From assembly GCF_002215035.1 (NCBI RefSeq), contig NZ_NKFP01000006.1:137083-201082 (forward strand): a stretch of 64,000 nt of DNA, in the 5' to 3' direction. The stretch comes from Leptolyngbya ohadii IS1 (GTDB lineage Bacteria > Cyanobacteriota > Cyanobacteriia > Elainellales > Elainellaceae). Below, piece by piece: positions 38,321 through 40,920 of the stretch. Below the pieces are notes generated by a model. That model was given only the letters and a program-made list of their open reading frames with translations, was not told where the DNA came from and did no database searches. Numbering within the stretch: position 1 is the stretch's first letter; each line of letters starts with the position of its first letter. The translations under genes and the position numbers were made by a program.

Positions 38321-39202
38321 TTAGCTTGCGGTCGGCAGCAGGTCATAAGAAAACCGGGGCAGATTCCCGGTTACAGCAGAAGGAATAGTCCGACCCACGG
38401 CTTGAGCGATCGGCTCCAGACTCCGCGCCAGAGAAACCATTTCCTCCAGAGAAAGTGCCTGACGCGCATCAGAAACAGACTTTTCCGGGACGGGATGACA
38501 CTCCACAATCACGCCATCTGCACCGCAGGCGATCGCCGCTCTTGCCAGGTCGGGAACCAGTTCGCTCTTTCCGGCGGCATGGCTGGGGTCAACCATTACG
38601 GGCAGGTGGGTAATTTGCTTGAGGGCAACGACCGCACCCAGATCCAGCACGTTGCGTGTGTAGGTGTCGAAGCTGCGAATGCCCCGCTCGCACAGAATTA
38701 CATTCGGATTGCCGTGGCTCATCACGTATTCCGCCGCCATCACGAATTCCTCGATCGTCGCTGCCAGACCGCGCTTGAGTAAAATCGGCTTATTTGCCTG
38801 TCCCAGTGCCTTCAGCAGGTCGAAGTTCTGCATATTGCGGCTACCCACCTGAAGCACATCGGCATATTCGGCGATTTCTTCGATTTGCGAGATTGCCATG
38901 ACTTCCGTGATTACGGGCAGACCGTAGCGATCGCGCACCGATGCCAGAATTTTTAGTCCTTCTACGCCAAGTCCCTGGAAGTCGTAGGGAGAAGTCCGGG
39001 GCTTGTACACGCCGCCGCGCAATGCCTGGATTTGACCTGTGGCAAGCCGACTGGCAACCGCTTCCATCTGGGCAAGGTCTTCGACAGCGCAGGGTCCGCC
39101 CACAATCAGCAGGTCAGAGCCGCCGACGCTAACGGTTTCGCTGATACGGACGATCGATTTGGACTGGGCGGGAGTTTTGAGAGTGAGTTTTGCTTTTTGC
39201 AT
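38321..39202 (-). CDS. aroF: 3-deoxy-7-phosphoheptulonate synthase (DAHP synthase, AroA-I-beta type)
   Basis: The enzyme joins PEP and erythrose-4-phosphate in the first step of aromatic amino acid synthesis. The 293-residue protein has LLIVGGPCAVEDLAQMEAVA with the PEP/metal Cys, GVYKPRTSPYDFQGLG, KRGLAATIEEFVMAAEYVM, CERGIRSFDTYTRNVLDLGA and MVDPSHAAGKSELVPDLARA. This is the Bacillus-like short class, and I see no extra regulatory domain, so feedback on the enzyme itself is not evident. Instead the 5' leader (39203-39469) carries an aromatic-rich reading frame and alternative hairpins, pointing to control by transcription attenuation. Confidence 0.95.
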   Translation of the reverse strand: MQKAKLTLKTPAQSKSIVRISETVSVGGSDLLIVGGPCAVEDLAQMEAVASRLATGQIQALRGGVYKPRTSPYDFQGLGVEGLKILASVRDRYGLPVITEVMAISQIEEIAEYADVLQVGSRNMQNFDLLKALGQANKPILLKRGLAATIEEFVMAAEYVMSHGNPNVILCERGIRSFDTYTRNVLDLGAVVALKQITHLPVMVDPSHAAGKSELVPDLARAAIACGADGVIVECHPVPEKSVSDARQALSLEEMVSLARSLEPIAQAVGRTIPSAVTGNLPRFSYDLLPTAS

Positions 39203-39212
39203 GGTCTTGGTT

Positions 39213-39240
39213 TAGGGGGAATTAGGGAGTAGGGAGTAGG
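39213..39240 (-). repeat. CT-rich low-complexity repeat in the aroF leader
   Basis: On the aroF strand it reads TCCTACTCCCTACTCCCTAA, close to the CTCCCTGC-type repeats elsewhere. It lies between the attenuator terminator and the aroF start codon. Confidence 0.7.
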
Positions 39241-39268
39241 AAGCGGGGAATGGGGCAAAGCGGAACAT

Positions 39269-39300
39269 TAAAAAACCCGGAGCCTTTGAGCTGTCCGGGT
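39269..39300 (-). terminator. attenuator terminator of the aroF leader
   Basis: On the minus strand ACCCGGA pairs with TCCGGGT (plus 39294-39300 with 39275-39281), followed by a run of six T. The 5' arm can instead pair with GTCCGGGT of the leader frame (plus 39328-39335), a perfect 8-bp match, which would be the antiterminator. The two structures exclude each other. Confidence 0.8.
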
Positions 39301-39325
39301 GGGGTTCGACTTTTGCAGGACGACT

Positions 39326-39469
39326 TTACCCGGACGTGAGCCTGGTCCAAAAGTAAAATCCAAAAAACCAAACGGTGTAGGGCATGGTCATCACTGCGAA
39401 AAGGTTTGAGTTCGTGAGTTGAAGACTAAATAAAACAAAAACCGCAGACTTTCTAGTTCTGCGGCTCAT
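39326..39469 (-). CDS. aroF leader peptide, aromatic-rich
   Basis: A reading frame ends with TAA at 39326-39328 after ...PYTVWFFGFYFWTRLTSG; eight of eleven residues in the run W-F-F-G-F-Y-F-W plus a preceding Tyr are aromatic. The nearest starts are ATG at 39391 or 39385 (about 20 residues, weak ribosome site). The frame also extends to an ATG at 39469 (47 residues) with AAGGA 8 nt upstream, a better site. Aromatic codons are followed directly by the antiterminator arm that overlaps the stop codon. This is the layout of trp/phe-type leader peptides: stalled ribosomes at scarce Trp, Phe or Tyr would favour the antiterminator. The function is inferred from the layout alone. Confidence 0.75.
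   Translation of the reverse strand: MSRRTRKSAVFVLFSLQLTNSNLFAVMTMPYTVWFFGFYFWTRLTSG
39430..39464 (-). terminator. second terminator-like hairpin within the aroF leader
   Basis: CCGCAGA (39442-39448) pairs with TCTGCGG (39458-39464); on the minus strand it is followed by TTTTTGTTTTATTT. It lies 140 bp before the attenuator terminator and inside the longer form of the leader frame, so it may be a first control point or the end of a short RNA. Confidence 0.65.
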
Positions 39470-39810
39470 CGAGAGATTCCTTGCTAGACGGAACTACCCC
39501 CGGTGAGCCGTGGTAAAGCTAAACCAATAAAAGTAAAATCGATTCGCTGTACCCAGAGCCATAGGATAAACAGATCCCTTCTGCAATTTAAACTGCAAAC
39601 TTGTGTTAAGAATACTTTTCCTACCGACAACCGTAACAAAGTTGTCAAAACTTCGTCAAGTCATTTGTCGGAAAATATCGCTAAAATCTGACGGGTTGGT
39701 TTCCCTTTGGTTAGAACTTGTCCGATCGCTTTATGATGGGCGATGCAGAATCTCACAATTCCCAACCCGATCGCTGAATCAACCCCGATTCTGAACAAAT
39801 CTGAACAAAC

Positions 39811-40920
39811 ATGATTGAAGCAGACCATCTGAGTAAGATTTACGGCACGACTTCCGCGATTCAGGACGTTACGTTCTCCGTCGAGAAGGGCGAAATTCTG
39901 GGCTTCCTGGGACCGAACGGAGCCGGAAAAACCACCACCATGCGGATCTTGACGGGCTATTTGCCTGCTACCAGCGGCACAGCACGGATCGCCGGATTCG
40001 ATGTACATGAAAACTCGATGGCCGTGCGTCAGCGGATCGGCTACCTGCCGGAAAATCCGCCCCTCTATACCGATATGTCTGTAGAGGGCTATCTGCATTT
40101 TGTCGGTCGGCTCAAGGGAGTTCCAGCGGGCGATCGTCCGACGCGGGTCAAGCTGGCAATGAAGCGGTGCGGTCTGCTGGACAAGAAACAGGTTTTGATT
40201 CGCAAGCTGTCCAAAGGCTATCGACAGCGGGTAGGGATTGCCCAGGCGATCGTCCATGATCCGCCAGCGATTATTCTGGACGAACCTACGGTGGGGCTTG
40301 ATCCCCGCCAGATTATCGAAGTGCGGAATCTGATTAAGAGCCTCGCGGGAGAGCATACGATTATTCTCTCGACCCACATCCTGCCGGAAGTCAGTATGAC
40401 CTGTAGCCGGGTAGCGATTATTAACCGGGGTCGAGTTGTGGCAATGAATACGCCCGATCAGCTCATGGCGCAGTTGGCAGGCGGCGCGGGCTACGAACTG
40501 GAGGTCGAAGGCGATTCCGTTCTGGTACAGCGTCAGCTAGAGCAGTTGCCCTTTGTGAAGGCGATCGATCTCCTCTCCGATGAAGCATTACCCCACGCCC
40601 ATCACCGCTATCGAATCACCCTCGATCCGGAACAGCAAACCGGACAGAGTGCAGGTCGAGAAATTGCAGGTCGAGAAATTGCGGCGGCGATCGTCTCCTC
40701 TGGCTGGGGACTGCACGAAATGCGGCGAGTCCAGGTCAGCCTGGAAGAAGTCTTCCTGGAACTGACGACAGAAGAAACGATCGCAGACGAAACATCGACT
40801 GAAATATCCGAGGAATCCAAAGTCCCAGAGGAGTCTTCTCAAGATGGGGCGAGCGACCAGACGATCGAATCTGTCTCCGCCGAGTCTTCAGAATCCGTAT
40901 CTTCAGAGTCCCGGTCATAA
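39811..40920 (+). CDS. ABC transporter ATP-binding protein (GldA/NatA-like)
   Basis: The 369-residue ATPase has Walker A LGPNGAGKTTT (about residue 35), Q-loop GYLPENPPLY, signature LSKGYRQRVGIAQAI, Walker B IILDEPTVGLDPRQ and H-loop LSTHILPE. A C-terminal tail of about 60 residues is acidic and Ser/Glu-rich (TEETIADETSTEISEESKVP), a feature not needed for ATP binding. It starts a four-gene set with a permease, a GldG-like protein and a DUF4340 protein. Confidence 0.92.
   Translation: MIEADHLSKIYGTTSAIQDVTFSVEKGEILGFLGPNGAGKTTTMRILTGYLPATSGTARIAGFDVHENSMAVRQRIGYLPENPPLYTDMSVEGYLHFVGRLKGVPAGDRPTRVKLAMKRCGLLDKKQVLIRKLSKGYRQRVGIAQAIVHDPPAIILDEPTVGLDPRQIIEVRNLIKSLAGEHTIILSTHILPEVSMTCSRVAIINRGRVVAMNTPDQLMAQLAGGAGYELEVEGDSVLVQRQLEQLPFVKAIDLLSDEALPHAHHRYRITLDPEQQTGQSAGREIAGREIAAAIVSSGWGLHEMRRVQVSLEEVFLELTTEETIADETSTEISEESKVPEESSQDGASDQTIESVSAESSESVSSESRS

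Follow-up and report, generated by a model that had tools for sequence, protein, structure and literature searches.

Two probable serial leader-peptide attenuator modules in front of the DAHP synthase gene aroF of Leptolyngbya ohadii and their conservation in relatives

Ribosome-mediated transcription attenuators of amino acid operons, such as those of trp, pheA and his in E. coli, are well described, and in the E. coli trp type four strands take part, with the 1:2 pause hairpin, the 2:3 antiterminator and the 3:4 terminator. Mutually exclusive terminator/antiterminator pairs are typical of RNA-only leaders too, and tandem T-boxes and tandem riboswitches place serial sensors of the RNA-only kind on one mRNA. 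In the open-licence PubMed Central literature, the only other tandem transcription attenuator that we found is that of Salmonella mgtCBR, for which the relevant passages of PMC3641672 describe tandem attenuators for different signals, called there a singular example, with leaders that answer ATP and proline-charged tRNA and control a Mg2+/virulence operon. In front of aroF itself, the short frame uORFC-13-1 is described in the pertinent part of PMC8632094 from 24 sequences, of Acholeplasma and environmental DNA only, with at least one Phe codon. The ermB gene is given in the corresponding part of PMC8274638 as controlled by two leader peptides, by a translational mechanism. For cyanobacteria, a statement of a 2016 paper is that reliable data on the attenuation mechanism are absent (PMC4833913, in the passage concerned), and our searches of the open-licence PubMed Central literature gave no description of leader-peptide attenuation in cyanobacteria.

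Here we analyse the aroF locus in a window of 64 kb, by which we mean the whole stretch of DNA of 64,000 nucleotides. Judged by sequence and folding, the DAHP synthase encoded here, which has no N-terminal regulatory part, is very probably under serial ribosome-mediated transcription attenuation by two modules, the distal module A and the proximal module B (Table 1). The initial annotation had proposed one attenuator, in the interval 39269-39469; the frame and the pairing arms named there are confirmed, and the interval misses a second module of like build that lies upstream of it, with its leader at 39562-39494. By sequence both modules have a leader frame, each with its own attenuator, as is also the case in 133/152 of the upstream regions compared below. 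It is noted that a simple consensus scan listed neither a promoter nor a terminator in 39180-39900. These misses likely come from the consensus limits of the scan (loop 3-8, at least 4/6 in the -10 hexamer), and therefore the hairpins were folded directly and the promoter pattern was counted across species.

Table 1. Features of the aroF locus in the order of transcription, in window positions
Feature	Position	Strand	Sequence and composition	Evidence
Promoter-like sequence	39630..39659	-	TTGACG (39659-39654) and extended -10 TGTTACGGT (39638-39630)	cross-species pattern
Leader peptide A	39494..39562	-	MALGTANRFYFYWFSFTTAHRG, 22 codons and TAG	aromatic block kept in relatives
Module A strand 1	39504..39510	-	CGGCTCA, within final codons of leader A	covaries with strand 2
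Module A strand 2	39462..39468	-	TGAGCCG, antiterminator 3' arm and terminator A 5' arm	pairing and covariation
Terminator A	39432..39467	-	GAGCCGCAGA...TCTGCGGTTT (39467-39439) and T-rich run	fold -15.0 kcal/mol; covariation
Leader peptide B	39326..39391	-	MTMPYTVWFFGFYFWTRLTSG, 21 codons and TAA	aromatic block kept in relatives
Module B strand 1	39328..39335	-	GTCCGGGT, one base into the stop	covaries with strand 2
Module B strand 2	39293..39300	-	ACCCGGAC, antiterminator 3' arm and terminator B 5' arm	pairing and covariation
Terminator B	39270..39300	-	ACCCGGA...TCCGGGT (39300-39275) and six T	fold -13.2 kcal/mol; covariation
aroF, DAHP synthase type I-beta, 293 aa	38321..39202	-		TIGR01361 354.5 bits

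For module B, the frame and the arms that had been read from the letters are as stated. The frame, read back from the minus strand, is ATG ACC ATG CCC TAC ACC GTT TGG TTT TTT GGA TTT TAC TTT TGG ACC AGG CTC ACG TCC GGG TAA (an alternative ATG lies at 39385), with the aromatic residues in the order Y W F F F Y F W. The T of its TAA is the final base of strand 1, and the complementarity of strand 1 to strand 2 is perfect. The ACCCGGA of strand 2 can instead pair with TCCGGGT (39281-39275), after which the six T follow, and the antiterminator and the terminator are mutually exclusive, strand 2 being common to both. A further segment, GTCNTGC (window 39324-39315), situated between the stop of leader B and terminator B, is in the consensus of module B and outside both counted helices.

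The arrangement is like that of the E. coli trp, pheA and his attenuators in that a leader rich in the regulated residues and exclusive antiterminator and terminator helices precede a biosynthetic gene. It is unlike them in that aroF has two complete serial modules, each with all three types of aromatic codon, and in that a DAHP synthase gene of cyanobacteria and Melainabacteria is what follows; the conserved pairing found at aroF takes three strands per module. With mgtCBR, as the passages of PMC3641672 present it, the locus shares a leader mRNA with a pair of short frames, each part of an attenuator of its own (the common transcript at aroF being predicted), whereas both aroF leaders carry F, W and Y, as judged by codon content only, and precede a biosynthetic gene. 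The uORFC-13-1 motif has in common with the locus a short frame that contains Phe codon(s) and lies next to a terminator before aroF; unlike the aroF tandem, uORFC-13-1 is one frame, with no tandem and no Tyr/Trp block reported in the part of PMC8632094 that treats it. Tandem T-boxes and tandem riboswitches share the serial design and are without a translated leader, and aroF gives no Rfam match (see below). Thus, going by the sequence features and the predicted working, the aroF tandem resembles the classical attenuator, and the doubling with the same residue types appears to be new.

Relatives of AroF were collected from named genomes (the best 80 listed), from 36 genomes of the same family and from 388 genomes of the same class, and the DNA upstream of the genes was read. 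In the class sample some AroF relative was present in 323/388 genomes, many of these being just weaker ones. This gave a set of 155 distinct regions, one of which (L033) belongs to Candidatus Obscuribacterales, Candidatus Melainabacteria. The module detector required a frame in which at least 5 of 10 codons are aromatic, a terminator that lies 5-45 nt past the stop and pairing of strand 1 with strand 2 at -11 kcal/mol or lower, and it was run on 152 of the 155 regions, L011, L140 and L207 being too short. Of these aroF upstream regions, 133 have two modules, 17 have a single one and 2 (L027 and L188) lack any, so that at least one module is present in 150/152; the rows are related by descent, and these counts are not counts of independent events. 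The controls gave none, with 0/152 reverse complements and 0/304 dinucleotide shuffles, and when a slightly wider detector was run over the whole window on both strands, modules A and B were its sole reports. By classification of the terminators in the 155 distinct regions, A is present in 133, B in 138, both in 121 and neither in 5, with the order A then B in 121/121 of the regions that have both classified; 13 modules, where mostly the hairpin finder overextended the stem, are unclassed and are absent from the counts of 133 and 138. Two modules are present in at least 14 of the seventeen family labels sampled, one of which pools f1 and the named genomes.

Could only one module be an active sensor, the other being superfluous or serving chiefly, as a terminator, to keep basal expression low? 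The 17/152 regions with one module speak for this, as do family f11 (3/3 tested rows) and the single row of f41, which have A only. These belong to the 19 regions with fewer than two modules, some of which show a second leader whose terminator is below the threshold (e.g. L085, L096 and L161). We consider it unlikely, because 133/152 regions have two modules, because neither module has lost its codons or its two alternative helices, and because covariation is seen in each of the four helices, as described below.

The reading of two working attenuators is consistent with the codons of the leaders. In leader A (n=133), counting back from the stop, an aromatic residue is present at positions -12 to -8 in 88-98% of the sequences and at position -7 in 71%. 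That relatives keep the aromatic-rich frame of leader B, on which the initial annotation had staked its claim, is confirmed by our comparison, where leader B and its terminator are found in 138/155 distinct regions with positions -10 to -7 aromatic in 88-98%, positions -14 to -12 being aromatic in 81-88% (n=138). The aromatic residues interchange within the class (e.g. 86 F and 40 Y at position -11 of leader A), which is the expectation under selection for any aromatic codon. F, W and Y are all present in 130/133 leaders A and 133/138 leaders B. The N-terminal parts of the leader peptides are poorly conserved, and conservation in the alignments falls on the codon block and on the three strands that pair. 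Between the last aromatic codon and strand 1 there are mostly 5 or 8 nt in A (125/130) and 12 nt in B (89/133); module A would read mainly the earlier Tyr/Phe codons, and module B the last Trp as well.

That the switch is a T-box, a riboswitch or another RNA-only sensor, with the aromatic frames incidental, is scarcely credible. Such a sensor would share the mutually exclusive terminator/antiterminator layout with the locus, but no match to Rfam 15 was found at the locus at the gathering thresholds, nor up to E 1 in 39200-39650 (one tRNA, away from the locus, is the Rfam hit in the window), and the conserved positions are those just named. Note also that aromatic frames occur in 0/152 of the reverse complements and, without a module, in 31/304 of the shuffles. 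Action in trans is a further role that the peptides, or the short RNAs that end at the terminators, may have, for which there is a precedent in peTrpL of Sinorhizobium meliloti, a trans-acting Trp leader peptide according to the part of PMC7298713 that treats it. To such a role we give a very slight probability, since no test result points there and the peptide N-termini are poorly conserved.

We now turn to the covariation of the four helices, which was analysed in alignment A1, of 34 non-redundant rows from 129 A modules, and alignment A2, of 55 of 59 rows picked from 137 B modules, with stems longer than 36 nt excluded. The cells are paired in 92.8% for the A antiterminator, 97.6% for the A terminator, 92.7% for the B antiterminator and 95.6% for the B terminator; with the partner shifted by 1-3 columns, the pairing is at most 52.4, 57.2, 65.0 and 63.6%, respectively. 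Double-sided changes number 38, 14, 27 and 24 in the same order versus shuffled means of 14.2, 3.8, 9.4 and 7.7, and for each of the four helices 0/500 shuffles equalled the observed count of double-sided cells. When the measure is how many pairs have changes on both sides, 9/500 shuffles are as high for the A terminator, and the values are not above the shuffles for the A antiterminator (86/500 as high), the B antiterminator (108/500) and the B terminator (76/500). The covariation of the B stems, named earlier as a check, is thus found in the changed cells and not in the number of changed pairs. Moreover, one base of strand 2 of module A covaries with both of its partners: of the 10 rows that have G at this base, 9 have C as its partner in the terminator, and all 10 have C or U as its partner in strand 1.

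Based on these features, we propose the following pathway. The aroF mRNA would begin upstream of the two serial attenuators, each of which has a short leader frame in which Phe, Tyr and Trp codons are clustered. Strand 1 lies just past this block, in the final codons or at the stop, and can form the antiterminator with strand 2, which is also the 5' arm of the intrinsic terminator. When the aromatic tRNAs are charged, the ribosome would reach the stop and cover strand 1, and the terminator would form. When one aromatic tRNA is short, the ribosome would stall in the block with strand 1 left free, the antiterminator would form first and the polymerase would continue. As the polymerase would have two switches to pass, read-through would multiply and the response would be steeper. 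In this way a transcriptional feedback would be placed on a DAHP synthase without N-terminal regulatory part. The classical ribosome-stalling layout at aroF that had been suggested for the proximal attenuator is supported by the conserved codons and the covarying exclusive stems, with the stalling itself, the termination and the response to tRNA charging predicted to follow.

The stalling step was modelled by masking the RNA to 10 nt past the A-site codon, 10 nt beyond the A-site codon being the footprint of the ribosome, and by folding the remainder to the end of the terminator. For module A of the window a stall at codons -14 to -9 (F Y F Y W F) gives a terminator probability of 0.40-0.44, which rises to 0.89 for a stall at -8 and to 0.99-1.0 further on; for module B stalls at -14 to -7 (W F F G F Y F W) give 0.03-0.32 and later ones 0.92. 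In the window the aromatic block nearly coincides with the permissive stall positions, the final Phe (-7) of leader A not being permissive in the folding model. Over 130 of the 133 A loci the mean terminator probability is 0.60-0.73 at -16 to -9, 0.93 at -8 and 0.97-0.99 after, and over 137 of the 138 B loci it is 0.64-0.78 up to -8, 0.84 at -7 and 0.95-1.00 after, with medians at the B loci of 0.94-0.99 even when strand 1 is free; the ribosome-free means are 0.53 (A) and 0.82 (B). The direction over all loci is as in the window, and weaker. Equilibrium folding thus backs the switch only moderately in the model, and taken alone it shows no antitermination in most species. The antiterminator, which is transcribed first, would have a kinetic advantage.

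With regard to the start of transcription, the pattern TTGACN, 15-18 nt and TGNTANNNT, at most 150 nt upstream of the start of leader A, is found at 53/130 loci, against an expectation of 0.05 by mononucleotide shuffling, and TTGAC is concentrated 101-140 nt ahead of the stop of leader A. The promoter-like pattern between leader A and aroF is found at 0/130 loci. From the promoter-like sequence of the window, a transcription start near 39623 would be expected. A start downstream of 39326, which the initial annotation named as fatal to its attenuator, would not be expected, the pattern, at the loci that show it, being upstream of both leaders, and both modules would be on one common transcript. 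Shine-Dalgarno-like 4-mers ahead of the leaders are scarce (A 4/131, B 19/130), which could mean weak initiation or another mode of start.

This scarcity, together with the preference of equilibrium folding for the terminators, could speak for an action of the leaders on translation or mRNA stability, by ribosome coupling or mRNA protection, the hairpins being mRNA ends of little regulatory value. Such a role is very unlikely, because a hairpin with a T-run follows each leader and the pairing of strand 1 with the terminator arm is kept by compensatory changes. Moreover, the distance from terminator B to aroF is about 70 nt and more (39270 to 39202), and because of this distance the aroF start is free of sequestration by the arms of the modules.

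The score of AroF against the TIGR01361 profile is 354.5 bits versus a cut-off of 267.75. AroF is without the N-terminal regulatory part: 1rzm (338 residues) is aligned from residue 87 only, the alignment to the 262-residue 1zco begins at residue 9 and that of PRK08673 at position 68. The N-terminal part of the 1rzm-like DAHP synthase is, we presume, the seat of feedback inhibition, and DAHP synthases of the 1zco type we take to have no feedback inhibition, so that attenuation may be a substitute for allostery of the short AroF. The genome has a second DAHP synthase with PF00793 (L263, G000:C6:1073914-1074801, open frame 358 aa), and the module detector found no leader module near this gene or near the trpE-type gene L265 of the same genome. 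For a longer type of DAHP synthase, about 54% identical, six upstream regions were seen, five without a module and one (L208, G055:C15:366280-367360, family f21) with one, which consists of a single aromatic leader, MKNSQFWYSFTFRSATGVRHRSG, and a terminator.

The spread of the modules was followed with two covariance models, R1 for module A and R2 for module B. In the own genome each has a single match (1351 and 1745 candidates, 150 each scored). In the large scans R1 has matches in 26/244 genomes of the phylum and R2 in 66/194 genomes of the class, one each, numbers that, with strict filters and 15 or 20 candidates scored per genome, are lower bounds and leave room for weak copies elsewhere. 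An aroF listed on the same strand lies downstream of 65/66 R2 and 24/26 R1 matches. At the R1 match in G492 an aroF of 74% identity was found downstream afterwards; at that in G143 (L226, G143:C48:72200-75600) module A abuts a decayed aroF fragment, with terminator A and module B lost; and the R2 match in G153 is 22 nt from the contig end.

Among 31 loci from genomes of the class of L033, two modules are found in 5 (L231, L235, L237, L238 and L244), one in 13 and none in 13, the last being mostly distant relatives. At a lower threshold a second leader and terminator are also seen in L228, L240 and L241, and a second leader, with no terminator found, in L234 and L239. One of these Melainabacteria genomes, G531, has at least two close aroF copies (L228 and L231), both 64% identical to that of the window and each with module A. 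In a midpoint-rooted AroF tree of 78 sequences, thinned from 148 extracted, the 30 cyanobacterial rows form one group (100/99) with the Melainabacteria rows outside. The simplest reading would be that the tandem is older than the split of Cyanobacteria and Melainabacteria; an early transfer of the whole locus may be the explanation instead, since the rows of Melainabacteria surround the cyanobacterial group as a paraphyletic set.

Outside these groups, eight loci of Acidobacteria (L036, L037, L039, L043, L049, L062, L070 and L074) show one aromatic leader, a terminator and strand-1 pairing before an aroF of 51-54% identity, with leaders built on different sequences (e.g. MFPTHAGSYSFRFWRFTPSG); in L066, L072, L073 and L075 a leader is visible and the detector is not passed. 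These may be a separate family of single attenuators. In Photobacterium (L040, L055, L059 and L061) a WWW leader (e.g. MLQQIQNQQCVFFNNWWWHSYLRAV) and a terminator precede an I-beta aroF, and this leader presumably resembles the Trp leader.

Finally, we tentatively put forward a fuller reading that is quite possible and that we hold with less than even confidence: the locus would be a serial, two-step cooperative gate at the entry enzyme of aromatic biosynthesis that predates the divergence of Cyanobacteria and Melainabacteria, that is tuned by spacing, with A answering mainly to shortage of Tyr or Phe and B to shortage of Trp, Phe or Tyr, and that replaces the missing allostery. As both modules carry the same residue types, the gain from the second switch can be tested in terms of range, steepness and codon tuning. 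If attenuation holds, cyanobacteria would control the entry of the shikimate pathway by it and would probably have done so from before the Melainabacteria split; it would imply close coupling of transcription and translation on the aroF transcript, and it would offer a conserved control point for the engineering of aromatic production in cyanobacteria.
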